NCBI RefSeq assembly: GCF_004343075.1
Contig: NZ_SLXP01000002.1
Coordinates: forward strand, 496,001 to 560,000
Direction: 5' to 3'
DNA: 64,000 nt
Source: Rhodovulum marinum
Lineage (GTDB): Bacteria > Pseudomonadota > Alphaproteobacteria > Rhodobacterales > Rhodobacteraceae
Part shown: piece after piece, positions 15,770 to 31,575 of the stretch
Layout of the letters: every line of letters begins with the position of its first letter
Position numbering within the stretch: the first letter of the stretch is position 1
Notes under the pieces: generated by a model
Told to the model about the DNA's origin: nothing
Seen by the model: only the letters and a program-made list of their open reading frames with translations
Database searches by the model: none
Made by a program: the position numbers and the translations under genes

Positions 15770-16770
<1,001 letters not shown>

Positions 16771-16771
<1 letters not shown>

Positions 16772-17649
16772 TACTTCTCGCTTTCCACAAGGCCGCGGAT
16801 GAACAGCCGCTGCATGCCGATGACCACCACCACGGGCGGCAGCATGGCGAGGATCGAGGTCGCCATGATGACCGGCCAGTCGGCGATGTCGTCGCCCGAC
16901 GGGAACATCTGCTTGATGCCCATCACGATGGTGTTCATCGACGGGTCGGTGGTGATGAGGAGCGGCCAGAGATACTGGTTCCAGCCATAGATGAACAGGA
17001 TCACGAAGAGCGCGGCGATATTCGTGCGGCTCATCGGCAGGAGGATATCCCGGAAGAACTGCATCGGGCGGGCGCCGTCGACGCGGGCGGCCTCGGCCAG
17101 TTCGTCGGGAACGGTCATGAAGAATTGCCGGAACAGGAAGGTGGCGGTGGCCGACGCGATCAGCGGCAGGATGAGGCCCGAATAGCTGTTCAGCATGCCG
17201 AAGCCCGCGACGACCTCATATGTCGGGACGATGCGCACCTCGACCGGCAGCATGAGCGTCAGGAAGATCAGCCAGAAGAACACCCGCCGGAACGGGAAGC
17301 GGAAATAGACGATGGCGAAGGCCGACAGGAGCGAGATGATGATCTTGCCCACCGCGATGCCGATCGCCATGACGCCGGAATTCAGCAGCATCAGCGCCAC
17401 AGGGGCGTTGATGCCCGAGACCAGCGCCTTGCGGTAATTCTCGAAGAACTGGTCGCCGGGGAGAAGCGGCATGGGCGGGCGGACGATTTCGGGCTGGCTG
17501 ACGGTCGAGGCGACGAAGGCCAGCCAGATCGGGAAGAAGATGAAGGCGACGCCGAGGATCAGCCCGGCATGGGTCAGCCACAGCCCCGCGCCGCGGCGTT
17601 CGACCATGCCGGGCGGCGGGGCTTTGCGGGTGCGGGCGGGGGCGGTCAA
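16771..17649 (-). CDS. ugpE: Glycerol-3-phosphate ABC transporter permease UgpE
   Basis: Inner-membrane permease, 292 residues, with about six helices and the EAA loop [21 protein letters not shown] keep the TTG start at 17649: it overlaps the ugpA stop (TTGA) and has GGAGGG eight bases upstream. The ATG at 17607 ([19 protein letters not shown]) aligns better with E. coli UgpE but lacks a ribosome site, so the 14 extra residues are uncertain. Confidence 0.87.
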
Positions 17650-18527
17650 TAATGCACCCTCCGCTCGATATACTTGAACTGGATGATGGTCAGGATCGAG
17701 ACCACGACCAGCAGGATCACGGATTGGGCCGCCGAAGACCCGAGGTCCTGGCCCACGAAGCCGTCGGAATAGACCTTGTAGACGAGGATGGTGGTGGCCT
17801 GTTGGGGGCCGCCGGAGGTGATGGTGTGGATCACGCCGAAGGTTTCGAAGAACGCGTAGACGATGTTGACCACCAGCAGGAAGAAGGTGGTGGGTGAGAG
17901 CAGCGGGAAGACGATGGTGCGGAACCGGGTCCAGAAGCGGGCGCCGTCGATGGCGGCGGCCTCGATCACCGATTTCGGGATCGCTTGCAGGCCCGCGAGG
18001 AAGAACAGGAAATTGTAGCTGATCCGCCCCCAGGCCGAGGCCACGACGACAAGGCCCATCGCCTCGCCCTCGTTCAACACGTGGTTCCAGTCATAGCCCA
18101 GAAGGCCCAGGTACCACGTCACAACGCCCACGCGGGTGTTGAACATGAAAAGCCACAGCACGCCCGCGACGGCGGGGGCGACGGCATAGGGCCAGATCAG
18201 AAGGGTGCGGTAGGTGCCGGACCCCTTGATCAGCCGGTCGGCGAGGACGGCGAGGTAGAGGGCGACTCCCATCGAGACCAGCGTGACGAGGGTGGAGAAG
18301 ATCGCCGTGGTGACGAAGGACGCGCGGTAATAGGGGTCGGACAGCAGGTAGTCGAAATTGCCCAGCCCCACGAAGCGCGAGGACAGCCCGAACGGGTCGG
18401 GGATGAACAGCGACTGCCAGATCGCCTGCCCTGCCGGGTAGAAGAAAAAGACCGCCGTGATGACGATCTGCGGCAGGATCAGCAGCAGGGGCAGCCAGAT
18501 GCCCTTGAAGAGAACGCGTTTTTCCAT
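17646..18527 (-). CDS. ugpA: Glycerol-3-phosphate ABC transporter permease UgpA
   Basis: Inner-membrane permease, 293 residues, starting [20 protein letters not shown]. Six hydrophobic segments and the coupling loop [20 protein letters not shown] match the UgpA/MalF permease family. Its 3' end carries the ribosome site and overlaps the ugpE start. Confidence 0.88.
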
Positions 18528-18539
18528 TTGCGGGCGATG

Positions 18540-18571
18540 CGCGCGCCCCGGCGCGGGGGCCGGGGCGCGCG
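18540..18571 (-). terminator. 13-bp stem between ugpB and ugpA
   Basis: Perfect stem of 13 bp (18540-18552 with 18559-18571) and a 6-base loop fill almost the whole gap between ugpB and ugpA. Without a T-tract it probably acts as a 3' stabiliser or partial terminator for ugpB mRNA, as at dppA. Confidence 0.6.
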
Positions 18572-18577
18572 GCGGGT

Positions 18578-19888
18578 TTAGCGGTTGGCCTGTTCGAAGC
18601 GGCGCAGCAACTGGTTGCCACGTTCGACGGCGGTGTTCAGCGCGGTCTGCGCGTCCTTGTCACCGGCCCAGACGGCCTCAAGCTCTTCGTCGATGATGCC
18701 GCGGATCTGGTCGAAGGAGCCAAGGCGCAGGCCCTTGGAATTCGCGGTCGGTTCCTTGGCGGTCATCTGGGTCACCGCGATATCGGTGCCGGGGTTCGCG
18801 TCATAGAAGCCCTGTTCGCGGGTCAGGTCCCCGGCGGCCTTGGTGATCGGCAGGTAGCCCGTGTCCTGGTGCCACTTGGCCTGGATTTCGGGCGAGGACA
18901 GGAAGTTGAGGAAGGCCGCGACGCCCTTGTATTCCTCGTCCGTTTGCCCCGCCATCACCCAGAGCGAGGCGCCGCCGATGATGGTGTTCCGGGGGGCCCC
19001 CTCGACGCCTTCCCAATAGGGCAGCGGGCGGACCTCGAAATCGAACTGGGCCTCGGACTTGATGCCCGCGTAGCCGGCCGAGCTTTCGGTGAACAGGGCG
19101 CATTCCCCCGCGCGGAAATTCGCGCCGCCCTCGTTGCGGCGGCCGGCGTAGATGAACTTGCCGTCCCGCGCCCAGTCGCCCATCGCCTGGATGTGCTGGA
19201 CCTGGACCGGGCCGTTGAAGGCCAGTTCCGTATCCAGCCCGGCAAAGCCGTTATCCTGCGTGGCAAACGGCACGTCGTGATAGGCGGACAGGTTTTCGAG
19301 GTGAATCCAGCTTTGCCAGGCGGTGGTCATCGGGCAGTCGCTGCCCGCCTCTTTCAGCTGGTCCAGCACCGCGCCCACCTGCTGCCAGGTCGAAAGATCG
19401 GTGTCGGGGTCGATTCCCGCCGCACTCAGCGCGTCGCGGTTGACCCAGAGGACGGGGGTGGAGGAGTTGAACGGCATCGACAGCATCTGGCCGTCGGTGG
19501 TGGTGTAATAGCCCTTGACCGAGCCGATGAAGGCGTCGGGGTCGAAGTCGGCGCCCGCGTCCTGCATCAGTTGATAGACCGGCACGATGGCGCCCTGGGC
19601 GGCCATCATGGTGGCGGTGCCGACCTCGAACACCATCAGGATGTCGGGCTGTTCGCCCGCGCGAAAGGCGGCGATGCCGGCGTTCAGCGTTTCGGAATAG
19701 TTGCCCTTGTGGGTGGCGGTCACGACATAGTCGGACTGGCTGGCGTTGAAGCTGTCGACCTGTTCGGCCACCAGTTCGCCCAGCCGCCCGGTGAAGGCGT
19801 GCCAGAACTCGATTTCCGTCTGCGCGGCCACGGGGGTGGCGGCGGCAAGGGCGCAAAGGAACGCGATCGGCGAAATGCCCGCTTTCAT
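18578..19888 (-). CDS. ugpB: Periplasmic glycerol-3-phosphate-binding protein UgpB
   Basis: SBP family 1 binding protein, 436 residues, Sec signal [23 protein letters not shown]. The mature start [25 protein letters not shown] and the segment [15 protein letters not shown] fit UgpB. First gene of ugpBAEC, with a GGAGGACTT-type ribosome site. A perfect palindrome lies about 80 bases upstream of the ATG. Confidence 0.9.
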
Positions 19889-20239
19889 GGTAAGTCCTCC
19901 CGAATGTTGTTGGACCGTTTCCGTGTCGCCGGAACACTAGCGCCCAGCGGCTTGACGGATCAATCGCTTAAGCGCCTGACGTGACGTTTTCACGACGCCC
20001 CGGGCCGGGGCGGGTCCACGGGCGCACGGGTCGAATCGCGGGGGTTGGGGGCATGTCCGGGGGCTGCATTTATTTCCGTTTCATATCATGTGCTTGCGGG
20101 AATTCCGGGGCTGAAAAAAACCTTTGATTCCGCGATTGAAATTCGCACGGTTTGACCGCATGTTTCATCGCGTCGGATCCAGCGACAGCATCGACGATTG
20201 GCGCGCGACGGCTGGCCCGACACCGGGACAAACCTCTCG
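19889..20239. other. Divergent ugpB / kamA intergenic region
   Basis: About 350 bases holding both promoters. CGCTTAAGCG at 19965-19974 is a perfect 10-bp palindrome and a plausible operator for ugp. The stretch 20060-20165 is clearly AT-richer than its surroundings and is the likely kamA promoter area. The kamA frame is open from a TTG at 20198. Confidence 0.5.
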
Positions 20240-21544
20240 ATGGAAGAGATCCTCGCTCCCGATGCGGAGCCTTCGCGAAGCGGCCTGACCGTTTCCACCG
20301 CCCTTCCCTTGCCCGATCATCCCCCCGCCCCGCAGATGCGCGCCCCGCGCCCGCCGGCCCCCCGCCGCGCGGCGTTCCCGCGCGGCCCCGTGGCACGGGC
20401 GTTCCAGCGGCGGTTCTTTCCCGCGGCCAGCGCCGAGGACTGGTCGGACTGGCGCTGGCAGATGCGCGCGCGCATCCGCTCGCTGGCCGAGCTGGAGCGT
20501 GTCTTTGCCCTGAGCGCGGACGAGCGCGCGGCGGTCGCGCGCCATACCGGCGGGCTGCCGGTGGGGATCACGCCCTATTACGCCAGCACGATGGGCCTGG
20601 ACGACCCGTCCGAGCCGCTGCGGCGCACGCATATCCCGGTGGGCGCGGAATACCTGCGCACCCCCGGAGAGGCCGACGACCCGCTGGGCGAGGACCATGA
20701 CAGCGCGGCGCCGGGGCTGGTGCATCGTTATCCCGACCGGGTGCTGTTCCTGACCACGGGCACCTGTTCGACCTATTGCCGCTATTGCACGCGGTCGCGC
20801 ATGGTGGGCCAGGCGGGCGGCGAATACCAGCTCTCGACCCGGCAATGGGAGCAGGCGCTGGCCTATATCGCCGCGCATCCCGGGATTCGCGACGTGCTGC
20901 TCTCGGGTGGCGATCCGCTGACGCTTTCGGATGAAAAGCTGGATTACCTGTTGGGCCGGTTGCGGGCGATTCCCCATGTGGAATTCATCCGCATCGGGAC
21001 CAAGGTGCCGACCGTGTTGCCGATGCGGATCACGCGCGAGCTGACGCGGGTGCTGAAGAAGCACCATCCGCTGTGGATGTCGATCCATGTCACCCACCCG
21101 CACGAGCTGACCCCCGAGGCGAGCGAGGCCTACGGGCGGCTGGCCGATGCGGGGATTCCGCTGGGCTCTCAGACCGTGCTGCTGAAGGGCATCAACGACG
21201 ATGTCGAGGTGATGAAGACGCTGTATCACGGCCTGCTGAAGCGCCGGGTGAAGCCCTATTACCTGTATCAATGCGACCCCATCACCGGGTCCGCGCATTT
21301 CCGCACGCCGGTGGCCAGGGGCCTGGAGATCATCGAGGGGCTGAGGGGCCACACGACGGGCTACGCGGTGCCGCATTACGTGATCGACGCGCCGGGCGGC
21401 GGGGGCAAGATCCCGCTGTTGCCCGATTACGTGGCGGGGCGGGATGGCGACGACCTGATCGTGCGGAATTTCGAGGGCGGGCTGTATCGCTACCCGGACC
21501 CGGGCGAGAGTTTCGGGGCCGACCGGGGGGCGGGGCCATGCTGA
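20240..21544 (+). CDS. kamA: Lysine 2,3-aminomutase (KamA), radical SAM/PLP
   Basis: Converts L-lysine to beta-lysine with a [4Fe-4S] cluster, SAM and PLP. 434 residues from the ATG at 20240; a TTG at 20198 would add 14. The radical-SAM cysteines are C176, C180 and C183 (CSTYCRYC). The PLP lysine is K390 in DAPGGGGK. The two aspartates that hold the lysine side-chain amine in clostridial LAM (7 and 44 residues before the PLP lysine) are both kept, at 383 and 346 (YQCDP). This argues for lysine, against glutamate 2,3-aminomutase, and the 60-residue N-terminal arm and length argue against EpmB. It overlaps the next gene by 7 bases in a four-gene coupled operon. Confidence 0.88.
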   Translation: MEEILAPDAEPSRSGLTVSTALPLPDHPPAPQMRAPRPPAPRRAAFPRGPVARAFQRRFFPAASAEDWSDWRWQMRARIRSLAELERVFALSADERAAVARHTGGLPVGITPYYASTMGLDDPSEPLRRTHIPVGAEYLRTPGEADDPLGEDHDSAAPGLVHRYPDRVLFLTTGTCSTYCRYCTRSRMVGQAGGEYQLSTRQWEQALAYIAAHPGIRDVLLSGGDPLTLSDEKLDYLLGRLRAIPHVEFIRIGTKVPTVLPMRITRELTRVLKKHHPLWMSIHVTHPHELTPEASEAYGRLADAGIPLGSQTVLLKGINDDVEVMKTLYHGLLKRRVKPYYLYQCDPITGSAHFRTPVARGLEIIEGLRGHTTGYAVPHYVIDAPGGGGKIPLLPDYVAGRDGDDLIVRNFEGGLYRYPDPGESFGADRGAGPC

Positions 21545-22539
21545 TCGGGCTGACCTACGACCTGCGCGAGGATTACGCGGGGATGGGGCTGAGCGAGGAA
21601 GCGCTGGCCGAGTTCGACAGCCCCGAGACGGTGGCCGCGATCGAGGCGGCGCTGGGCGCGCTGGGCCACCGGGTCGACCGCATCGGCCATGTGCGCGCGC
21701 TGGCCGCGCGGCTGGTCGCCGGCGACCGCTGGGATCTGGTGTTCAACATCGCCGAGGGGCTGGCGGGCCGGTCGCGCGAGGCGCAGGTGCCCGCCCTGCT
21801 GGAGGCGTTCGGGGTGCCGTACACGTTTTCCGACCCGCTGACCCAGGCGGTGGGGCTGGACAAGGCGGTGGCGAAACGGCTGGTGCGCGAGGCGGGCGTG
21901 CCGACCGCGCCCTTCGCGGTGCTGGACGATGCGGCGGCGGACGCGGCCTGTGACCTGCCCTGCCCGCTGTTCCTGAAACCGCTGGCCGAGGGCACCGGCA
22001 AGGGCTGTGAACGCGCGTCCAAGGTGACGGACCGCGCCGCGCTGGCGCCCACGGCGGCGGCGCTGCGGGCGCGCTTCGGCCAGCCAGTGCTGGCCGAGGG
22101 GTTCCTGCCGGGGCGGGAATTCACGGTGGGCATCCTGGGCAACGGCGCGGGCGCGGCGGTGATCGCGGTGATGGAGATCGAGTTGCCGCGCACCGCCGAG
22201 GCCGAGATCTACAGCTTCGAGAACAAGGAGCTGTGCGCGACGCGGGTGGCCTATCGGCTGGCCGAGGACGCCGAGGCGCAGGAGGCGGGGCGCGTCGCGC
22301 TGGCGGCCTATCGCGCGCTGGGCTGCCGGGATGCGGCGCGCGTCGATATCCGGTCGGATGGCGCGGGGCGGCCGCAGTTCCTGGAGGTGAACACGCTGGC
22401 GGGGCTGCATCCCACCCATTCCGACCTGCCGATCCTGTCGGGGCTGGCGGGGCTGTCCCATGACCGGCTGATCGCGGGGATCGTGGCGGCGGCCCGTGCC
22501 CGGCTGGGGCTGGGCGAAGAGGTGCGGGAACGGGCATGA
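21538..22539 (+). CDS. ATP-grasp ligase, D-Ala-D-Ala-ligase-like (first of two)
   Basis: 333 residues. The N-terminal preATP-grasp part has LVFNIAEGLAGRSREAQVP and PYTFSDPLT; the ATP-grasp core has CPLFLKPLAEGTGKG and the metal-binding FLEVNTLAGLHP. These enzymes join a carboxylate to an amine through an acyl phosphate. It starts 7 bases inside kamA and overlaps the next ligase by 4 bases. Context points to a beta-lysine-containing substrate rather than cell-wall D-Ala-D-Ala; that is inference. Confidence 0.85.
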   Translation: MLIGLTYDLREDYAGMGLSEEALAEFDSPETVAAIEAALGALGHRVDRIGHVRALAARLVAGDRWDLVFNIAEGLAGRSREAQVPALLEAFGVPYTFSDPLTQAVGLDKAVAKRLVREAGVPTAPFAVLDDAAADAACDLPCPLFLKPLAEGTGKGCERASKVTDRAALAPTAAALRARFGQPVLAEGFLPGREFTVGILGNGAGAAVIAVMEIELPRTAEAEIYSFENKELCATRVAYRLAEDAEAQEAGRVALAAYRALGCRDAARVDIRSDGAGRPQFLEVNTLAGLHPTHSDLPILSGLAGLSHDRLIAGIVAAARARLGLGEEVRERA

Positions 22540-23516
22540 GCGGGCTGTCCATCGCCGTGCTGCACGGGGCGAGCGGCGACCGCCCGGACGAGATCGACAC
22601 GCTGCGCACCGCCGAAACGGTCGCGGCGGCGTTGACCCGGCTGGGCCATGCGCCCACGCTTGTCCACCTGGCGCCCGACATGGCCGCGCTGGACCGGCTG
22701 GCCGCCGCGCCGCCCGACCTGGTGTTCAACCTGGTCGAGGCGGTGGGCGGGGTGGCGGCCCCGGCCGCGGCGATCCCCGCGCGGCTGGCCCGGCGGGGCC
22801 TGGCCTTTACCGGCTGCGGGGCGCGGGCCAGCCGGCTGTGCGCCGAAAAGCCGGCGATGAAACGGGTGCTGGTCCGGGCCGGGCTGCCGACGCCCGCGTG
22901 GTCGATGACCCGGCGGGGCCTGCCCGCGGGGGCGCCGGTGATCGTGAAATCGACAAGCGAACATGCCTCGGTCGGGATCGATGCGGGGTCGGTCGTGGCG
23001 GCCGAGGAGGCGGGCGCCGAGATCGTGCGCCGGCAGGCGCGGTTCGGCGGGCGGTTCTTTGCCGAAGCCTATGTCGAGGGGCGCGAGTTCAACCTGTCGC
23101 TGGTCGAGGGACCGGCGGGGCCCGAGCTGTTGCCGCCCGCGGAAATCCTGTTCGAGGGGTTCGGCGCGGCGCGGCCCCGCATCGTCGATTACGAGGCGAA
23201 GTGGATCGAGGGATCGCACGGGTTCGAAAACACCCCGCGCCGGTTCGACTTTGCGCCCGCGGAGGACGCGTTGCTGGACCGGCTGCGCGCGCTGGCGCTG
23301 GCGGCGTGGCGGGCGTTCGACCTGGATGGATATGCGCGGGTCGATTTCCGGGTCGGCGAAGACGGCCAGCCCTGGATCCTGGAGGTCAACACCAACCCCT
23401 GCCTGGCCCCCGACGCGGGCCTTGCCGCCGCCGCCGCCCGGGCCGGTCTCGGCCATGACGCGCTGGTGGGCCGGATCGTCGCTGCCGCCCGCGCCACCCC
23501 CCGGAAAGCCGCCTGA
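22536..23516 (+). CDS. ATP-grasp ligase (second of two)
   Basis: 326 residues and the same fold as the preceding gene but only moderately similar. Visible motifs: LVFNLVEAVGG, FTGCGARASRLCAEKPAMKRVL, VIVKSTSEHASVGID, FFAEAYVEGREFNLS and ILEVNTNPCLAPDAG with the Mg-binding Glu and Asn. It shares an ATGA with the upstream ligase, and the GNAT-deacetylase gene starts 1 base after its stop. Two consecutive ligases suggest two condensations, or a heteromeric pair. Confidence 0.83.
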   Translation: MSGLSIAVLHGASGDRPDEIDTLRTAETVAAALTRLGHAPTLVHLAPDMAALDRLAAAPPDLVFNLVEAVGGVAAPAAAIPARLARRGLAFTGCGARASRLCAEKPAMKRVLVRAGLPTPAWSMTRRGLPAGAPVIVKSTSEHASVGIDAGSVVAAEEAGAEIVRRQARFGGRFFAEAYVEGREFNLSLVEGPAGPELLPPAEILFEGFGAARPRIVDYEAKWIEGSHGFENTPRRFDFAPAEDALLDRLRALALAAWRAFDLDGYARVDFRVGEDGQPWILEVNTNPCLAPDAGLAAAAARAGLGHDALVGRIVAAARATPRKAA

Positions 23517-23517
23517 G

Positions 23518-25809
23518 ATGTTCCGCATCCGCAAGATCGCCGATGCCCACGCGCCCGCCAACCGGGCCGCCATCGCCGAGGCGCAGGCGATCCTGCGCGC
23601 GCAGTTCCCCGGCATGGACCCGGCCGATATCGACGCCCTGCCCGACCGGCTGGACAACCCGTTCGCCCAGCGGTTCGTGGCGGACCTGTTCGTGGCGCAG
23701 GACGCGCGCGCGCGGGTGCGGGCGGCGGCGGTGCTGTTGCATGACCCCGAGCTGAATTTCGCCTTTCTCGACGTGATCGCCGCCGATCCGGGCGCACGGG
23801 CCGGATCGGGCGCGGGCGGCGCGCTGTATGAACGGTTGCGCCAGGCCGCCGCCGAGCGGGGCGCCGAGGGGCTGTATTTCGAGTGCCTGCCCGACGACCC
23901 GGACCTGAGCCCCGACCCCGAGACGCGGCGCCAGAACGCCGACCGGCTGCGGTTCTATGAACGGTTCGGCGCGCGGCCGATCGCGGGCACCGCCTATGAA
24001 ACGCCGATCAAGCCGGGCGAGACCGACGCGCCCTACCTGGTGTTCGACGGGCTGGGGGGGCATGCCCTGCCCGGGGCCGAGCGGCTGCGCGCCATCGTGG
24101 CGGCGATCCTGGAGCGGAAATACCCCACGCTGTGCCCGCCGGATTACGTGGCAAGCGTGCTGGGGTCTATCGCACCGGGGGGCTATGACCTGCGGCCCGC
24201 GCGGTATCGCAACCGCGCGGCCCCCGCCCCCCGGACCGACCGGCGGGCGCCGATCCCGCTGATCGTGAACGACCGGCACGACATCCACCACGTGCGCGAG
24301 CGCGGCTATGTCGAAAGCCCGGTGCGCATCCCCGCGATATTGGCGGAGCTGGACAAGTCGGGCCTGTTCGAGCGGCGCCCGGCGCGCCGCTTTCCGGATC
24401 GCTGGATCCGCGAGGTGCATGACGCGCGGCTGATCGACTATCTGCGCCGGGCCTGCGCCGAGGCACCGGAAAAGACCGCGCTTTACCCCTATGTCTTTCC
24501 GATCCGCAACGCGGCGCGGCCGCCCAAGGAACGGTCGGTGCTGGCGGGGTATTGGTGCATCGACACGTTCACCCCGATCCACCGCAACGCCTGGCCCGCC
24601 GCGCGCGGCGCGGTCGATTGCGCGCTGGGCGCGGCCGAGGCGGTGCTGGACGGGGCGCCCGCGGCCTATGCGCTGGTGCGCCCGCCGGGCCACCATGCCG
24701 AGCACCGCAGTTTCGGCGGGTTCTGCTACCTGTGCAACGGGGCGATCGCGGCGAATTTCCTGTCGCATCACGGGCGGGTGGCGATCCTGGATATCGACTA
24801 TCACCACGGCAACGGCCAGCAGGACATCTTTTACGACCGCGCCGACGTTCTGACCGTGTCGATCCATGGCGACCCCAGTTTCGCCTATCCCTATTTCACC
24901 GGGTTCAAGGACGAAACCGGCCGGGGCGCGGGGGCGGGGTTCAACCTGAACCTTGCCCTGCCCGAACAGGTGAGCCCCGAGACCTATCGCGCGGCGCTCG
25001 ACCGCGCGCTGGCGCGGATCGAGGCGTTCGCCCCGGCCTTCCTGGTGCTGTCGCTGGGGTTCGACACGGCGCGGGGCGATCCGACGGGGACCTGGTCGAA
25101 CGGGGCCGAGGATTTCCGCCGGATCGGCGCGCGGATCGGGGCGGCGGGCTATCCCACGGTGATCGTGCAGGAGGGCGGTTATCGGGTGCGCACGCTGGGC
25201 ACGAACGCGCGGCGGTTCTTCGAGGGGCTGGCCGAGGGGCTGGCGGCGCCGCGCCGGGCGGCGGGGGGCCGCGCGCCGCGCCGCCCGGCCAAGGCGCCCG
25301 GGGCCGCGTTCCGCGCCACGCTGCGCGCCGAGGACCCCGCGCGCATCCGCGCGCTGGTGGCGGCGACGGGGCGGTTCTCGGCCGAGGAGATCGGCATCGC
25401 CGAAGACCTGGCGCTGGAGCGGATCGCGAAGGGGGCGGCCTCGGGCTATGAGTTCCTGCTGGCCGAGGGCGCGGGGGGGCTGGCGGGCTATGCCTGTTTC
25501 GGGCCGATCCCCGGGTCGGAGATCGGCTGGGATCTCTACTGGATCGCGGTTGCGCCCGGACTGCAGGGCCAGGGGCTGGGCGCGCGGCTGATCGCGGCGG
25601 CGGAGGACGCGATCCGGGCGGCGGGGGGGCGGTTCGTGCATGCCGACACCTCGACCAGCGCGGGGTACGCGGCGACGCGGGCCTTCTATGCCGCGCGCGG
25701 CTATCGCGTGGCGGCCGAGTTCCCCGATTTCTACCGCGCGGGCGACGGCAAGGCGGTGTTCGAAAAGGTGCTGGCCCCGCGCGGGGATGCCGGGGGGACG
25801 GCGCCCTAG
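23518..25809 (+). CDS. GNAT - histone-deacetylase-like - GNAT fusion protein
   Basis: 763 residues with three parts. Residues 1-190: GNAT-like acetyltransferase (FLDVIAADPGAR, RLRFYERFGARPI). About 240-580: arginase/deacetylase fold of the acetylpolyamine amidohydrolase/HDAC class with intact active site: His392-His393 (PPGHHAE), Asp427/His429 (DIDYHHGNGQ), Asp516 (GFDTARGD) and Tyr555 (GGYRV). About 590-755: a second GNAT (WIAVAPGLQGQGLGARLI, ATRAFYAARGYR). A protein with both acetyl-adding and acetyl-removing modules suggests temporary N-acetyl protection of an amine. Last gene of the kamA operon, followed by a strong hairpin. Confidence 0.85.
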   Translation: MFRIRKIADAHAPANRAAIAEAQAILRAQFPGMDPADIDALPDRLDNPFAQRFVADLFVAQDARARVRAAAVLLHDPELNFAFLDVIAADPGARAGSGAGGALYERLRQAAAERGAEGLYFECLPDDPDLSPDPETRRQNADRLRFYERFGARPIAGTAYETPIKPGETDAPYLVFDGLGGHALPGAERLRAIVAAILERKYPTLCPPDYVASVLGSIAPGGYDLRPARYRNRAAPAPRTDRRAPIPLIVNDRHDIHHVRERGYVESPVRIPAILAELDKSGLFERRPARRFPDRWIREVHDARLIDYLRRACAEAPEKTALYPYVFPIRNAARPPKERSVLAGYWCIDTFTPIHRNAWPAARGAVDCALGAAEAVLDGAPAAYALVRPPGHHAEHRSFGGFCYLCNGAIAANFLSHHGRVAILDIDYHHGNGQQDIFYDRADVLTVSIHGDPSFAYPYFTGFKDETGRGAGAGFNLNLALPEQVSPETYRAALDRALARIEAFAPAFLVLSLGFDTARGDPTGTWSNGAEDFRRIGARIGAAGYPTVIVQEGGYRVRTLGTNARRFFEGLAEGLAAPRRAAGGRAPRRPAKAPGAAFRATLRAEDPARIRALVAATGRFSAEEIGIAEDLALERIAKGAASGYEFLLAEGAGGLAGYACFGPIPGSEIGWDLYWIAVAPGLQGQGLGARLIAAAEDAIRAAGGRFVHADTSTSAGYAATRAFYAARGYRVAAEFPDFYRAGDGKAVFEKVLAPRGDAGGTAP

Positions 25810-25834
25810 ACCCCGGGCGGCGCGAGGGTAAGGG

Positions 25835-25890
25835 GTTTCGCCTTGGCTGCGCCAAGGCGACCGGGGGCCGGGGGCTGACGCCCCCGGCCC
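25835..25890 (+). terminator. Two hairpins after the kamA operon (dispersed intergenic repeat, variant)
   Basis: First hairpin CGCCTTGGC-TGC-GCCAAGGCG (part of a 28-base unit at 25835-25862), second hairpin an 11-bp stem with TGAC loop at 25865-25890. The first unit is a variant of the repeats at 31592-31620 and 50616-50644. It probably ends or stabilises the kamA operon transcript. Confidence 0.7.
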
Positions 25891-26004
25891 ATGCCTGGCA
25901 TCGCGGGCGGCGGGGGGTGTGCCCATGTCAAGACCGCCTTTGGTCTTGCAGCCTTGGGGCGGGTTCCGGCCTAGACTTGGGCCCGGCCGGGGAGCGGCAA
26001 GGGC

Positions 26005-27663
26005 GTGGACGGCATGGGCGACAAGGCGGGGACGGCAGCGGCGGCGGGGTCGAACGCCCGCGCCCGGCTGCGCCCGCTGGGCCCGTTTGCCACGCTGAAG
26101 GGCCAGCTGACGCTGGGGGCGGGGCTGATCGGCTGCGTCGCGATCCTGTCGGGCGCGCTGACCCTGCATGGCATGGCGCAGGTGTCGGACCGGCTGGAGG
26201 ATTCGCTGAACGCGGAACGGCGGATCGCGCGCTATTCGGTGCTGTCGACGCAGATCTCGGCCTTTATCGTGGTGGCGGCCGAGGCGATCCAGGTGGGGTT
26301 GTCGCCCGAGGACCGCGCCGCGCGGCTGGAGCCTGCGACGCGCGGGCTGCGGGGGACCTTTGCGTTGATGCGCCGCGACCTGGAGGGGGCGGTGGAGGAG
26401 GCGCGCGCGCAGGGGCTGGACGAGCAATCGCGCCGCGCCACGCAAAGCATCGCGATCGCCCGGATGGAGGCTCTGTTCACCGCGGCGCATGACGGGCTGA
26501 TGGCGGGAACCACGGGCAAGGACCGGGCGCAGGCCTACCTGGCGGGGTTCTCGCAGACGGTGGACCCGCTGTTGAACGCCGCGGTGGCCGACGAGATGCG
26601 GATCCGCGACGCGATCCTTTCGGGCATCGGCGAGTTGCGGCGGCGGCTGACGCTGATGGCGCTGGGGCTGGCGGGGCTGGTGGCGGCGATGTTCGGGGCG
26701 TTCTACCTGGGCCTCGTGCGCCCGCAGCTGGCGCGGCTGGACCTGGCGCGCCAGGCCGCCCAGCGGATCGGGCGCGAGGAATTCGACGTGGCCCTGCCCG
26801 AGGACCGCGAAGACGAGATCGGGCGGCTGTTCGCCGAGACCAACCGCGCGGCCCGCGCGCTGGCCAGCCGCCGCGCCGCGGTGGAACGGGAATGGGCGGC
26901 GCTGAACGAGACCATCGCCGCGCGCACCGAGGAATTGCGCGCCGCCAACGCCGCGCTGGAACGCACCGACGAGGACCGGCGCCGGTTCTTTGCCGATATC
27001 GGGCACGAGCTGCGCACGCCGCTGACAGTGATCCTGCTGGAATCGGAACTGGGCGCCAAGGGCGCGGGCGAGCCGCGCGAAGGATTCGAGACGATCCGGG
27101 CGCGGGCGCAGCGGTTGCAGCGGCGGATCGACGACCTGCTGCGCGTGGCGCGGTCGGAAAGCGGGCGGATCGAGCTGGCCGCCGAGCCGGTGGACCTGGT
27201 CCGCGCGGTGGCCGAGGCGGTGGCCGACACCCGCCCCAAGATCGCAAGCGCGGGCATGTCGGTCGAGGTCGCGGCCCGGCCCGGCGTGAGCGTGCGGGGC
27301 GATGCGGACTGGCTGCGCCAGCTGGTCGCCGGGCTGATCGAGAACGCGGTGCGCCATGGGCGTGCGGGCGGCGCGCTGGCGATCCGGGTGGCGGCCGAGG
27401 GGGGCGAGGGGCTGGTGCGGGTGATCGACGCCGGCCCCGGCGTGCCCGAGGACGAACTGGAGCGGGTGTTCACCCGGTTCCACCGCGGCGCGGACGGCCC
27501 GCGCCCCGAGGGGTTCGGGATCGGGCTTGCCCTGGCGCGGTGGCTGGTGGAACAGATGGGCGGGCGGATCGCGATGGAAAGCCCCGTGCCCGAGCATGCG
27601 CGGATCGGCGCGGGGCCGGGCGCGATGGTGACGCTGCGCCTGCCGCTGGCCGAAGAGGGATGA
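26005..27663 (+). CDS. Membrane sensor histidine kinase
   Basis: 552 residues from the GTG at 26005 (an ATG at 26014 is equally possible). A first membrane helix at about 33-55, a periplasmic helical sensor of about 160 residues, a second helix near 215-240, HAMP region, then the HisKA phospho-acceptor His in FADIGHELRTPL and an HATPase with N-box LIENAVRHG, DAGPGVP and GFGIGLALAR. It shares its stop with the start of the response regulator and lies just upstream of pqqA, so control of PQQ or of a PQQ-dependent dehydrogenase is plausible. Confidence 0.88.
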   Translation: MDGMGDKAGTAAAAGSNARARLRPLGPFATLKGQLTLGAGLIGCVAILSGALTLHGMAQVSDRLEDSLNAERRIARYSVLSTQISAFIVVAAEAIQVGLSPEDRAARLEPATRGLRGTFALMRRDLEGAVEEARAQGLDEQSRRATQSIAIARMEALFTAAHDGLMAGTTGKDRAQAYLAGFSQTVDPLLNAAVADEMRIRDAILSGIGELRRRLTLMALGLAGLVAAMFGAFYLGLVRPQLARLDLARQAAQRIGREEFDVALPEDREDEIGRLFAETNRAARALASRRAAVEREWAALNETIAARTEELRAANAALERTDEDRRRFFADIGHELRTPLTVILLESELGAKGAGEPREGFETIRARAQRLQRRIDDLLRVARSESGRIELAAEPVDLVRAVAEAVADTRPKIASAGMSVEVAARPGVSVRGDADWLRQLVAGLIENAVRHGRAGGALAIRVAAEGGEGLVRVIDAGPGVPEDELERVFTRFHRGADGPRPEGFGIGLALARWLVEQMGGRIAMESPVPEHARIGAGPGAMVTLRLPLAEEG

Positions 27664-28349
27664 TGACCGAGAGCGAGAACCTCATCCTGATCGTCGACGA
27701 CGACCCCGAGATCACCGCGGCGCTGGCACGCGGTCTGGCGCTGCACGGGTACGGCACGGTTTGCGCGCACCGGGTGGACGAGGCCCGCGCGCGGTTCGGC
27801 GAGGGGGGCTTCAGCGCGGCCATCGTCGACGTGATGATCGGCCCGGAAAGCGGGATCGAGCTGGTGCGGGACCTGCGCGCCGAGGGCGACCGCACGCCGA
27901 TCCTGATGCTGAGCGCGCTGAGCGAGGTGGAGGACCGCGCCGGGGGCCTGGATGCGGGCGCGGACGATTACATCGCCAAGCCCTTTGCCTTTGACGAGCT
28001 GGTCACGCGGCTGAAGGTGCAGGAGCGCCGGGCGAAACGCGCCGCCCCTGCCCTGCGGCTGGAACCCGCGACGCGGACGGTGCACGGGGCCGCGGGCCAC
28101 GTGACCCTGACCGAGCGCGAATTCGCCCTGTTCGCGACGCTGTGGACCCATCGCGGCGAGGTGATGTCGCGCGCCGACCTGTTCGACCGGCTTTGGGCGC
28201 GGGAGGGGACCAGTTCGGAAAACGTGGTCGACGTCTATATCGGCTATCTGCGGCGCAAGCTGGCGCCCACGCGGGAATATGGATTCGAACTGCGCACCCT
28301 GCGCAACCGCGGCTTCGTGCTGGAATCCCTTGCGGACGACGAAAACTAA
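27663..28349 (+). CDS. OmpR-family response regulator
   Basis: 228 residues. The receiver has the acidic pair in IVDDDPE, the phospho-acceptor Asp in AAIVDVMIG and Lys in YIAKPF. The C-terminal winged helix has TLTEREFALF and VDVYIGYLRRKL. A second ATG lies one codon upstream (27660). It is the partner of the kinase upstream and is followed after 111 bases by pqqA. Confidence 0.9.
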   Translation: MTESENLILIVDDDPEITAALARGLALHGYGTVCAHRVDEARARFGEGGFSAAIVDVMIGPESGIELVRDLRAEGDRTPILMLSALSEVEDRAGGLDAGADDYIAKPFAFDELVTRLKVQERRAKRAAPALRLEPATRTVHGAAGHVTLTEREFALFATLWTHRGEVMSRADLFDRLWAREGTSSENVVDVYIGYLRRKLAPTREYGFELRTLRNRGFVLESLADDEN

Positions 28350-28460
28350 GCCTTTGGTCGCGATTGCCTTTTAAAATTTCTTAGAACAATTCTTTTGACG
28401 GGAGGGGGCGCGATGGCGATCCTCTGTCCATCCTACGGGAACCTTAAGGGAGAGAACATC
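28350..28460 (+). promoter_or_regulatory. pqqA leader and promoter region
   Basis: A distinctly AT-rich stretch at about 28366-28397 (TTTTAAAATTTCTTAGAACA) in otherwise GC-rich DNA marks the likely pqq promoter and a candidate binding region for the adjacent response regulator. Ribosome site AAGGGAGAG ends about 7 bases before the pqqA ATG. No sigma-54 pattern found. Confidence 0.5.
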
Positions 28461-28556
28461 ATGGCTTGGAAGAAACCGATCGTCCGCGAAATCGAGTGCG
28501 GCATGGAAATCAACATGTACGGCCCCGACAGCGACGATCACGGCGTCCTGTTCTGA
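28461..28556 (+). CDS. pqqA: PQQ precursor peptide PqqA
   Basis: 31-residue ribosomal precursor of pyrroloquinoline quinone. Starts MAWKKPIVREIECGMEINMY; Glu16 and Tyr20 in the E-x3-Y motif are the two residues joined by PqqE and built into the cofactor. Strong ribosome site and 22 bases before pqqB. Too short for ordinary gene calling but unmistakable. Confidence 0.96.
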   Translation: MAWKKPIVREIECGMEINMYGPDSDDHGVLF

Positions 28557-28578
28557 TCGCCGGCGCGCGGAGGCCGGA

Positions 28579-29475
28579 ATGGGATTCCGCGCGCACATCC
28601 TTGGGGCGGCCGCCGGCGGCGGGTTGCCCCAGTGGAACTGCGGCTGCGCGCAGTGCAACATGGCACGCGCCGGCACGATCCCCCCGCAGACCCAGTCGTC
28701 GCTCGCGGTGACCGCCAACGGGCGCGACTGGGCAATCCTGAACGCGTCCCCCGACATTCGCCAGCAACTGACCGCCTGCGCCGCGCTGCACCCCACGGGG
28801 CTGCGCGAGGTGCCGTTGGCCTCGGTTCTGGTGACCAATGGCGATATCGACCATGTGGCGGGTCTGTTGACGCTGCGCGAGATGCAGGCGTTCACCCTGT
28901 TCGCGACGGCGGGCATCCACGAGGTTCTGGCCGCCAACCCGATCTTCGCCGCGCTGAACGAAAGCGTGGTGGCGCGGGAAACGGTGGCGCTGGGCCAGCC
29001 CTTCGACCTGGCGCCGGGGCTGCGGGCCGAACTGTTCGCCGTGCCGGGCAAGGTGCCGCTCTACCTGGAGGGCGAGACGGTCGAGACGGACCTGGTGGGC
29101 GAACAGACCGTGGGCGTGCATCTGCAGGGGGGCGGCGGCGAGGCGCTGTATATCCCCGGCTGTGCGGTGCTGAACGCCGATCTTCGCGCGCGGCTGCGGG
29201 GCGCGCCGCTGGTGTTCTTCGACGGCACGCTGTGGCGCGACGACGAGATGGTGCGCGCGGGGCTGGGCGCCAAGACCGGCAAGCGGATGGGCCATATCTC
29301 GATGAGCGGGCCGGACGGGTCGATCGCCGGGTTCGCCGATCTGGGCGTGGCCAGGAAGGTTTTCGTGCACATGAACAACACCAACCCGGTGCTGGACCCC
29401 GGATCGGCCGAACGCGCCGAGGCCGAGGCCGCCGGGTGGATCATCGGACAGGACGGAATGGAGGTGTCCCCATGA
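28579..29475 (+). CDS. pqqB: PQQ biosynthesis protein PqqB
   Basis: 298 residues, metallo-beta-lactamase fold, acting late in PQQ formation. Starts GFRAHILGAAAGGGLPQWNC, the PqqB hallmark with the CGCAQCNMAR cysteines, and has VTNGDIDHVAGLLTLRE in place of the classical HxHxDH. Shares ATGA with pqqC. Confidence 0.95.
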   Translation: MGFRAHILGAAAGGGLPQWNCGCAQCNMARAGTIPPQTQSSLAVTANGRDWAILNASPDIRQQLTACAALHPTGLREVPLASVLVTNGDIDHVAGLLTLREMQAFTLFATAGIHEVLAANPIFAALNESVVARETVALGQPFDLAPGLRAELFAVPGKVPLYLEGETVETDLVGEQTVGVHLQGGGGEALYIPGCAVLNADLRARLRGAPLVFFDGTLWRDDEMVRAGLGAKTGKRMGHISMSGPDGSIAGFADLGVARKVFVHMNNTNPVLDPGSAERAEAEAAGWIIGQDGMEVSP

Positions 29476-30221
29476 CTCAGACGCGGGAGGAGTTCGAGGC
29501 CCGGCTGCGCCGGATCGGCGAAGAGCGCTATCACGACAAGCACCCGTTCCACCACCTGCTGCATGGCGGGCGCTGCACGCCGGACCAGGTGCGGGCCTGG
29601 GTGATCAACCGCTATTACTACCAGTCGCGCATCCCGATGAAGGACGCGGCCTTCATGAGCCGGGTCGAGGACCCGAAACTGCGCCGCGCCTGGCGGTCGC
29701 GGATCGAGGATCACGACGGCACCGCCGAGAACGAGGGCGGCATCGCGCGCTGGCTGAAACTGGCGGAAGCCGTGGGGCTGGACCCCGATTACGTGGCCTC
29801 GGGGGTGGGCATCCTGCCGGCGACGAAATTCGCGGTGGATGCCTATGTGCGCTTTGTCCGTGACAAGACCCTGCTGGAGGCGGTGGCGTCCTCGCTGACG
29901 GAACTGTTCGCGCCCAAGATCCACGCCGAACGGATCGAGGGGCTGCTGGCGAATTACGATTTCGCCGATGATGTCAGCATGTCCTATTTCCGCAAGCGCC
30001 TGAGCGAGGCGCCCAAGGACGTGGCGTTCGGCCTGGCCTGGGTGCTGGACCATGCAGATACGCGGGAAAAACAGGACGCCGCGGCCGCCGCACTGACCTT
30101 CAAGACCGACGTGCTGTGGGCGCAGCTGGATGCGCTGTATTCGGCCTATGTGGAACCGGCCCGCATCCCGCCGGGCGGCTGGGTGCCGGGCGAAGGCATG
30201 GCACTGGCCAGGGCGTCATGA
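29472..30221 (+). CDS. pqqC: PQQ synthase PqqC
   Basis: 249 residues; cofactor-free oxidase that performs the final ring closure and oxidation to PQQ. Family stretches: YHDKHPFHHLLHGG, WVINRYYYQSRIPMKDA, RIEDHDG and TELFAPKIHAERI. Overlaps pqqB and pqqD by 4 bases each. Confidence 0.95.
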   Translation: MTQTREEFEARLRRIGEERYHDKHPFHHLLHGGRCTPDQVRAWVINRYYYQSRIPMKDAAFMSRVEDPKLRRAWRSRIEDHDGTAENEGGIARWLKLAEAVGLDPDYVASGVGILPATKFAVDAYVRFVRDKTLLEAVASSLTELFAPKIHAERIEGLLANYDFADDVSMSYFRKRLSEAPKDVAFGLAWVLDHADTREKQDAAAAALTFKTDVLWAQLDALYSAYVEPARIPPGGWVPGEGMALARAS

Positions 30222-30496
30222 TCGGGGCCGACGACATCCCCGTGATCCCGCGCGGCGTGCGGATGCAGTTCGACCGCGTGCGCGAGCGCTGGGTCCTCTT
30301 GGCGCCCGAGCGCACCGTGGCGCTGGACGAGATCGGCCGGGCGATCCTGTCGGAAATCGACGGGGAACGCAGTTTCGGCCAGATCACCGCGGGGCTGGCG
30401 GCGAAATATGCCGCCCCGCAAGAGGAAATCGCCGAGGACAGCCGCGGATTCCTCGGCGCGCTGATCGACCGCCGCTTCGTGGAGGTCCGCAGATGA
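30218..30496 (+). CDS. pqqD: PQQ peptide chaperone PqqD
   Basis: 92 residues; small RRE-fold protein that presents PqqA to the radical-SAM enzyme PqqE. Visible: IPRGVRMQFDRVRERWVLL, PERTVALDEIGRAIL. Overlaps pqqC and pqqE by 4 bases each. Confidence 0.93.
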   Translation: MIGADDIPVIPRGVRMQFDRVRERWVLLAPERTVALDEIGRAILSEIDGERSFGQITAGLAAKYAAPQEEIAEDSRGFLGALIDRRFVEVRR

Positions 30497-31575
30497 GTAT
30501 CAACCCGCCCATCGCGATGCTGGCGGAACTGACCCACCGCTGCCCGCTGTCCTGCCCCTATTGCTCGAACCCGGTGGAGCTGACCCGGCGCGACGCGGAA
30601 CTGGACACCGCGACCTGGGCCGACGTGTTCCGGCAGGCCGCCGACCTGGGCGTGCTGCAACTGCACCTGTCGGGGGGCGAACCGGTGAGCCGGCGCGACC
30701 TGGTCGACCTGGTCGTGGCGGCGCGCGAGGCGGGGCTTTACACCAACCTCATCACCTCGGGGATCGGGCTGACGGAAAAGCGGCTGACGGAGCTGGACGC
30801 GGCGGGGCTGGACCATATCCAGCTGAGCTTGCAGGGCACCGATGCCGAGATGGCCGACCGGATCGGCGGCTATCGCGGCGGCTTCGCGCGCAAGATGGAC
30901 GTGGCCCGCTGGATCGGCGAGATCGGTTTTCCGCTGACGCTGAACGCGGTGCTGCACCGGCAGAACCTGCACCAGTTGCCGCGGGCCATCGAGATGGCGG
31001 TGGAAATGGGCGCGCGCCGGATCGAGGTGGCGACCGTGCAGTTCCACGGCTGGGCGCTCTTGAGCCGCGACGCGCTGATGCCGACGCGCGAGCAGGCCCG
31101 CGAGGCCGACGCCATCGTCGCCGAGGCGCGGGCGCGGCTGAAGGGCACGCTGGTGATCGACTACGTGCCCGCCGATTACCACTCGGACTACCCCAAGCGC
31201 TGCATGGGCGGCTGGGGCACGACCGGGCTGAACGTGGCACCCGACGGGCTGGTCCTGCCCTGCCACGCGGCGCAGACGATCCCGACGCTTCACTTCGACA
31301 ACGTGCGCGAGAAACGCCTGCGCGAGATCTGGTACGAGGGGGCGGCCTTCAACGCGTTCCGCGGCACCGAGTGGATGCAGGAGCCCTGCCGAAGCTGCGA
31401 ACGCAGAGAGGTGGATTTCGGCGGCTGCCGCTGCCAGGCGATGGCGCTGGTGGGGGACGCGGCAGCCACCGACCCGGTCTGCATCAAGTCGCCCCACCAC
31501 GGCGAACTGCAGGAGCGCGCTGATGCCTTCGCGGCCGGCGAGGCCGGGTTCACTGCCCGCGCGGCAGCGGGCTGA
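30493..31575 (+). CDS. pqqE: PqqA peptide cyclase PqqE (radical SAM)
   Basis: 360 residues. Forms the C-C bond between Glu and Tyr of PqqA. The radical-SAM cysteines are CPLSCPYC near residue 17; the C-terminal SPASM region has the cysteine set around RCMGGWG, LPCHAAQ, CRSCERREVDFGGCRCQA and DPVC. Last gene of pqqABCDE; three hairpins follow. Confidence 0.95.
   Translation: MSINPPIAMLAELTHRCPLSCPYCSNPVELTRRDAELDTATWADVFRQAADLGVLQLHLSGGEPVSRRDLVDLVVAAREAGLYTNLITSGIGLTEKRLTELDAAGLDHIQLSLQGTDAEMADRIGGYRGGFARKMDVARWIGEIGFPLTLNAVLHRQNLHQLPRAIEMAVEMGARRIEVATVQFHGWALLSRDALMPTREQAREADAIVAEARARLKGTLVIDYVPADYHSDYPKRCMGGWGTTGLNVAPDGLVLPCHAAQTIPTLHFDNVREKRLREIWYEGAAFNAFRGTEWMQEPCRSCERREVDFGGCRCQAMALVGDAAATDPVCIKSPHHGELQERADAFAAGEAGFTARAAAG

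Follow-up and report, generated by a model that had tools for sequence, protein, structure and literature searches.

Among described systems, AblA and AblB, which lead to Nepsilon-acetyl-beta-lysine, pair a lysine 2,3-aminomutase with a GNAT acetyltransferase, and in the beta-lysylation of elongation factor P by EpmB and EpmA a KamA-family enzyme feeds beta-lysine to a ligating enzyme, EpmA being lysyl-tRNA synthetase-like. In pyrrolysine synthesis, lysine is rearranged by PylB, a radical SAM enzyme of a different family from KamA, and the ATP-grasp ligase PylC then couples the rearranged compound to a further amino acid. NAGGN synthetase joins a GNAT domain to an ATP-grasp ligase, the product of which is an acetylated dipeptide. 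Here we describe an operon of Rhodovulum marinum that encodes a KamA-type enzyme, two ATP-grasp ligases and a GNAT–deacetylase–GNAT fusion. It lies in a stretch of 64,000 nucleotides (contig NZ_SLXP01000002.1, 496,001–560,000), hereafter the window, whose positions are used as coordinates throughout. The system to which this operon belongs is nested: KamA with ligase 1 comes first, ligase 2 and the acetyltransferase GNAT2 are added to it, and a GNAT1–deacetylase forms an optional outer layer. Whether the operon yields an amide conjugate of beta-lysine, most likely a short peptide, through the successive action of these proteins is in our judgement evenly balanced.

The four genes occupy positions 20240–25809 of the + strand, as read from the sequence and its translations, and comprise the following features:

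20240–21544, + strand: KamA, a lysine 2,3-aminomutase-type radical SAM/pyridoxal phosphate (PLP) enzyme of 434 residues (Pfam Radical_SAM and LAM_C).
21538–22539, + strand: ligase 1, an ATP-grasp protein of the D-Ala-D-Ala ligase family, 333 residues (Pfam Dala_Dala_lig_C).
22536–23516, + strand: ligase 2, an ATP-grasp protein of the same family, 326 residues (Pfam Dala_Dala_lig_C).
23518–25809, + strand: the GNAT1–deacetylase–GNAT2 fusion gene (Pfam, structural model and orthologues).
23518–24072, + strand: GNAT1, the N-terminal acetyltransferase domain of the fusion, residues 1–185 (model topology and Pfam matches of orthologues).
24250–25242, + strand: the deacetylase domain, acetylpolyamine-amidohydrolase-like and of the HDAC superfamily, residues 245–575 (Pfam Hist_deacetyl, 3.7e-72).
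25291–25773, + strand: GNAT2, the C-terminal acetyltransferase domain of the fusion, residues 592–752 (Pfam Acetyltransf_1, 1.9e-14).

KamA and ligase 1 overlap by 7 bases and the two ligase genes by 4 (ATGA), while a single base separates ligase 2 from the fusion gene. The same junctions had been given in a first-pass annotation of this DNA, and its proposal that the genes act as a single unit is supported by their arrangement as one operon. Its statement that KamA has neither AblB nor EpmA as a partner likewise agrees with the NCBIfam scan, in which no such model matched the four operon proteins, the only ones scanned.

The lysine 2,3-aminomutase 2A5H is the only PDB sequence relative of KamA at E 0.001 (E 2.9e-131). 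Residues D346, D383 and K390 of KamA align with D293, D330 and K337 of 2A5H, the two lysine-binding aspartates and the PLP lysine of that enzyme. These residues are unchanged, together with C176/C180/C183 and R185, in 50 of 50 aligned sequences (49 of 54 rows plus the window, short, duplicate or awkward rows having been dropped), so that the radical SAM cysteines, the PLP lysine and the lysine-binding aspartates are all present. Retention of both lysine-selecting aspartates, already pointed out in the first-pass annotation, thus extends to the whole set and supports a lysine-type KamA. The score of KamA exceeds the cut-off of the general KamA family TIGR00238 (354.5 versus 199.2) and lies below those of AblA (474.5 versus 525.4 bits), EpmB (249.9 versus 369.3 bits) and the curated glutamate and arginine aminomutases in NCBIfam. 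Judged from its residues, the substrate of KamA is likely to be lysine. The operon nevertheless differs from AblA/AblB in its two ATP-grasp ligases, in a KamA that scores under the AblA cut-off and in lacking an AblB, no NCBIfam match to the AblB model (E 0.001) being found in the window fusion or in five GNAT2 orthologues. It also departs from EpmB/EpmA, since KamA lies below the EpmB cut-off and the ligases are of the ATP-grasp type.

Both ligases possess the catalytic residues of Ddl-family ATP-grasp enzymes, and the AlphaFold2 model of ligase 1 (pLDDT, the predicted local distance difference test, 93.6) has the corresponding fold, all 50 Foldseek matches listed being Ddl/VanA-type structures. 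In ligase 1, E25, D27, K109, K147, E187, R268, D270, E283, N285 and S295 are invariant in 57 of 57 sequences; in ligase 2, K105, K138, E177, R268, D270, N285 and N287 are invariant in 61 of 61, as are the other ATP-grasp residues checked, except for one E-to-D change among the 61 at position 283. These alignments hold 56 of 61 and 60 of 66 rows, respectively, each with the window added, after removal of short, duplicate and awkward rows. E25 and S295 of ligase 1 appear, when mapped by eye, to correspond to the positions that bind the amino-acid substrates in Ddl, and it is there that ligase 2 differs, with E19 in 42 of 61 sequences and G295 in 61 of 61. The two are distinct enzymes, probably with different substrates. 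Neither reaches any of the listed curated Ddl cut-offs in NCBIfam, the best scores, each against a cut-off of 243, being 154.8 for ligase 1 (scanned in both Pfam and NCBIfam as a protein one codon short, starting at 21541) and 126.3 for ligase 2. No match to the glutathione synthetase family was found, Dala_Dala_lig_C being the sole Pfam family that either ligase matched at E-values up to 0.001.

No Pfam match at E 0.001 covers the N-terminal domain of the window fusion. Shorter orthologues, which lack GNAT2, gave weak matches to Pfam GNAT families at about residues 20–152 in 10 of 10 cases (the best match of each having an E-value between 2.4e-3 and 8e-7), and in the AlphaFold2 model of the fusion (mean pLDDT 87) the order of N-terminal strands and helices is GNAT-like. 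G98 and G100 of GNAT1 are invariant in 70 of 70 sequences (69 of the 80 related loci described below plus the window, with short, duplicate and awkward rows dropped), and so are H392, H393, D425, D427, H429, D516 and Y555 of the deacetylase, which has the HDAC fold, the zinc ligands and the catalytic His and Tyr. The best PDB relatives of this domain are acetylpolyamine amidohydrolases, ahead of histone-type enzymes. It shares the catalytic residues of these closest solved structures, but forms one protein with GNAT1 and is associated with a biosynthetic operon. GNAT2 matches PDB 2r7h (E 9.8e-37). It is a gene of its own in other lineages and in two genomes (L311 and L318) forms one protein with ligase 2, an arrangement reminiscent of NAGGN synthetase. 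However, the NAGGN model TIGR03103 gave only 19 bits against a cut-off of 569 on the L318 protein and is absent among the listed NCBIfam matches of the window proteins; moreover, the domain order of NAGGN synthetase is the reverse, and NAGGN is not known to contain beta-lysine.

When genome contigs were scanned with the fusion, relatives appeared in at least 575 of the 590 listed stretches, and the best 80 were kept as loci. All six domains are present in 51 of these 80, in five gene orders. The order KamA–ligase 1–ligase 2–fusion accounts for 33 of the 51; KamA, ligase 1 and ligase 2 are accompanied by a separate GNAT2 gene after GNAT1–deacetylase in six and before it in six; four have KamA, GNAT1–deacetylase, the ligases and GNAT2, and two GNAT1–deacetylase, the ligases, GNAT2 and KamA. 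The remaining 29 loci include several short contigs. In the 47 loci that follow the order of the window (KamA, ligase 1, ligase 2, deacetylase), a spacing of 60 bases or less separates the two ligases in 46, KamA from ligase 1 in 35 and ligase 2 from the deacetylase gene in 37. Ligase 2 directly follows ligase 1 in most loci that have both; in L187–L190 KamA stands between them. For 14 fusion loci without a nearby ligase 1, the gene was found elsewhere in the genome at 228 bits or more in 12; of the other two, one has a match of 169 bits beside ligase 2 and GNAT2 and the other an ambiguous match of 122 bits. Clustering of the six domains is far above chance. The first-pass annotation would have been undermined had the neighbourhood not been conserved elsewhere; with 51 of 80 loci complete, it is widely conserved, and this first test of refutation fails.

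Across the window and the 79 loci placed in a tree with it, the fusion occurs in nine phyla, and the 51 complete loci come from seven, in both cases by labels taken from record titles, which are imperfect (Micavibrio, for example, appears under Bdellovibrionota). The nearest fusions are those of Pseudaestuariivita, Ruegeria and Leisingera. Among 195 other genomes of the window's order, with five candidates scored per genome, no best match was fusion-like, the top one (E 1.4e-80) covering the deacetylase part only; ligase 1 was found at E 1e-40 in none of 15 genomes of the window's genus, and G222, from the same-genus set, matched the deacetylase domain only. Patchy gain or loss near the window is likely. 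Plasmid records with a match to the fusion number 165, and in none does the match extend over more than 80% of its length.

Since choosing genomes by the fusion would bias the sample, occurrence was also followed through ligase 1, the most constant partner of KamA. With five candidates scored, it turned up in 20 genomes, counting that of the window, among 398 of the window's phylum. With ten scored, 70 of 198 genomes of Desulfobacterota, the phylum of L054 by its title, were found to carry it; here 42 genomes have a strong ligase 1 (more than 420 bits), 28 a weak one and 128 none. The smallest form, KamA and ligase 1 without ligase 2 or the GNATs, was seen in three of three regions read from one genus, in nine of nine genomes of which ligase 2 is absent at E 1e-50; in short flanks from these nine, KamA lies beside ligase 1 in six by profile and in a seventh by BLAST. 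By contrast with this minimal form, 18 of 20 wide Desulfobacterota loci, those with the best ligase 1 scores, contain KamA and both ligases, 16 contain GNAT2 and seven GNAT1–deacetylase; in the genome of L305, ligase 2 sits on another contig. Weak relatives of ligase 1 are mixed, some (L196 and L200) standing in KamA loci and others (L191–L193 and L201) showing no KamA in the sequence read around them. GNAT1–deacetylase was found in 18 of the 198 Desulfobacterota genomes, 14 of the 42 with strong, three of the 28 with weak and one of the 128 without ligase 1, counts based on five candidates scored per genome, so that misses are possible; the Fisher test of strong ligase 1 against none (p 5.9e-9) overstates independence because of relatedness among the genomes compared. 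Both limits weigh against the pathway proposed here, together with the points gathered after it.

In this pathway, KamA would convert L-lysine to beta-lysine. Ligase 1, as a Ddl-type enzyme, would activate a carboxylate as an acyl phosphate and join beta-lysine to a second amino acid, and ligase 2 may then attach a further residue or an amine through a second amide. GNAT2 would N-acetylate the substrate or the product of ligase 2. GNAT1–deacetylase would set the acetylation of a cationic acetylated amine and thereby edit, recycle or degrade the product; an acetylated cationic small molecule would suit it as substrate, acetylpolyamine amidohydrolases being the closest relatives of the deacetylase fold. 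What is observed is the gene set with its nested occurrence, the fusions of genes and domains and the intact catalytic residues; all substrates, the order of the steps and the product are what we infer. The combination of beta-lysine with ligases, as the first-pass annotation proposed, is plausible. On the other side stand, besides the two limits given above, L319, in which a strong ligase 1 with ligase 2 has no KamA in 13 kb; ligase 1 relatives without KamA in the 10–18 kb read (L191–L193 and L201) or in 1.5 kb flanks (L150 and L154); and G718, which has GNAT1–deacetylase and no ligase 1 match. The specificity of the ligases is not readable from sequence, and their substrates might have no relation to beta-lysine; GNAT1–deacetylase might act on proteins instead of a metabolite, the substrates and product of the pathway being predictions from genes.

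The first-pass annotation had gone further and proposed a cycle in which a protecting acetyl group is put on and taken off: GNAT1 would block an amine of beta-lysine, the ligases would act, the deacetylase would unblock and GNAT2 would cap the product. In keeping with such a cycle, GNAT1 and the deacetylase form a single protein in 79 loci, the only exception among the 80 being cut at its start, although sampling by the fusion favours this result, and ligase 1 is present in 17 of the 18 GNAT1–deacetylase genomes. Its distribution, however, points the other way, since GNAT1–deacetylase was not found in 53 of the 70 Desulfobacterota genomes with ligase 1 (28 of 42 strong, 25 of 28 weak) or, at E 1e-60 with all candidates scored, in any of the 19 ligase 1 genomes of the window's phylum besides the window's own, which amount to few independent cases because seven and nine of them fall in single genera. 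As most sampled ligase 1 genomes lack GNAT1–deacetylase, this protein is probably dispensable for the core product, and we consider the protecting cycle unlikely. The interpretation of the first-pass annotation as a whole is accordingly partly supported.

Alternatively, GNAT1–deacetylase may reversibly acetylate lysines of KamA or the ligases, in the manner of AcuA and AcuC, which act on acetyl-CoA synthetase. The fusion of an acetyltransferase to a deacetylase, its accessory distribution and the same 17 of 18 co-occurrence would suit a regulator, but among the relatives of the deacetylase, acetylpolyamine enzymes, which act on small molecules, rank above those of the histone type, and we hold this role to be improbable.

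If the operon does yield a beta-lysine conjugate, our leading guess for its role in the cell, a doubtful one, is that of a compatible solute. A net-neutral acetylated beta-lysine dipeptide would accumulate in large amounts under high salt, its pool being lowered by the deacetylase after a down-shock. The idea is possible and chemically natural but unproven. Nepsilon-acetyl-beta-lysine is known to protect cells against osmotic stress, and in Dehalobacter a gene for lysine 2,3-aminomutase lies behind Na+ and cyclic di-AMP riboswitches (PMC9337991), both of which favour an osmolyte; ablA/ablB are predicted in Pelobacter (PMC3543383), and a kamA is listed for salt tolerance (PMC9720073). In our loci, an MscS-type family (a BLAST group) has members directly beside the fusion or deacetylase gene in L052, L097 and L108 and, at a distance of two open reading frames, in L109, an adjacency count made post hoc; Pfam MscS matched the L097 member and three unlisted neighbours, against a background of roughly one per Mb, with 133 matches across 30 genomes whose rounded sizes add up to about 134 Mb. 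Several of the titled isolates with fusion loci are marine, which would also speak for an osmolyte.

The proxies for salinity, which have low power and leave phylogeny uncontrolled, do not point in this direction. Protein acidity showed no association with ligase 1 (p 0.14), the positives being slightly more acidic; one stretch per genome was used, and 36 of 40 genomes sampled from the 42 with strong ligase 1 and 48 of 60 sampled from the 128 without had enough sequence. BCCT transporters were found in two of 70 ligase 1 genomes versus 10 of 128 without (p 0.22). Clear NqrA matches, a set of six at E 4e-19 or better chosen post hoc, occurred in none of 70 versus six of 128 (p 0.09), and at the curated cut-off NqrA was found in eight of 70 versus 14 of 128 (22 genomes). 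No riboswitch was detected at the module in 37 loci or in window positions 16000–30500; the four gathering-level RNA matches in the 37 loci are two tRNAs, a thiamine pyrophosphate riboswitch and a group II intron, none of which precedes the module. For the osmolyte suggested in the first-pass annotation, protein acidity, BCCT transporters and Na+-NQR therefore give no positive association.

Downstream of the operon, a histidine kinase (26005–27663) and, by eye, a response regulator occupy 26005–28349 on the + strand; two-component genes also lie between ligase 1 and KamA in L187 and L188. Further on, 28579–30221 (+ strand) holds pqqB (TIGR02108) and, by eye, a pqqC-like gene, pyrroloquinoline quinone genes that probably form an unrelated operon. 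A search for defence systems gave no PADLOC match. Among the 204 of 259 listed neighbours scanned, no family is common to the loci, the tallies being three of 115 for MscS and for MarC, three of 89 for MgtE and five of 89 for CBS. A small cysteine-cluster protein family accompanies the module in nine loci (L062, 5258–6019, and eight others), between KamA and ligase 1 where both are present, and Pfam CxxCxxCC matched three of 115 scanned neighbours (members unlisted). One family that looks ATP-grasp by eye lies near the module in L041, L052, L084 and L099, and Pfam RimK matched one unlisted left neighbour; a further ligase may join the pathway in some lineages. On the Thioflavicoccus mobilis plasmid pTHIMO01 (L116, 3467–8948), a KamA-family gene stands beside ATP-grasp, SbnA, ornithine cyclodeaminase-like and diaminobutyrate transaminase genes, perhaps a diamino-acid relative of the KamA–ligase pathway. 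The Sinorhizobium fredii plasmid pNGR234a (L115, 5773–6783) carries a ligase 1-like ATP-grasp gene in the vicinity of a CapA-family gene; the 12.8 kb read there include no annotated KamA.

No description of this cluster was found among the open-licence papers listed, nor any of an aminomutase and an ATP-grasp ligase with either a deacetylase or a compatible solute. The 2009 analysis by Iyer et al. of gene neighbourhoods around ATP-grasp enzymes may mention part of the system. The pathway, real and conserved and assembled from known enzyme families, is apparently undescribed. That it represents an undescribed class of beta-lysine peptide metabolite, made by a nested, modular ATP-grasp assembly line found in several phyla and common in Desulfobacterota, we would put at slightly short of an even chance. 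It is compact, conserved and patchy, and directly testable, since its enzymes are few, its first intermediate is predicted and the lineages that carry it differ in completeness. It also presents an HDAC-type deacetylase attached to an apparent small-molecule biosynthesis. If its product proves to be a bulk solute, the known compatible solutes would gain a further class; otherwise the pathway would point to a novel beta-amino-acid metabolite.

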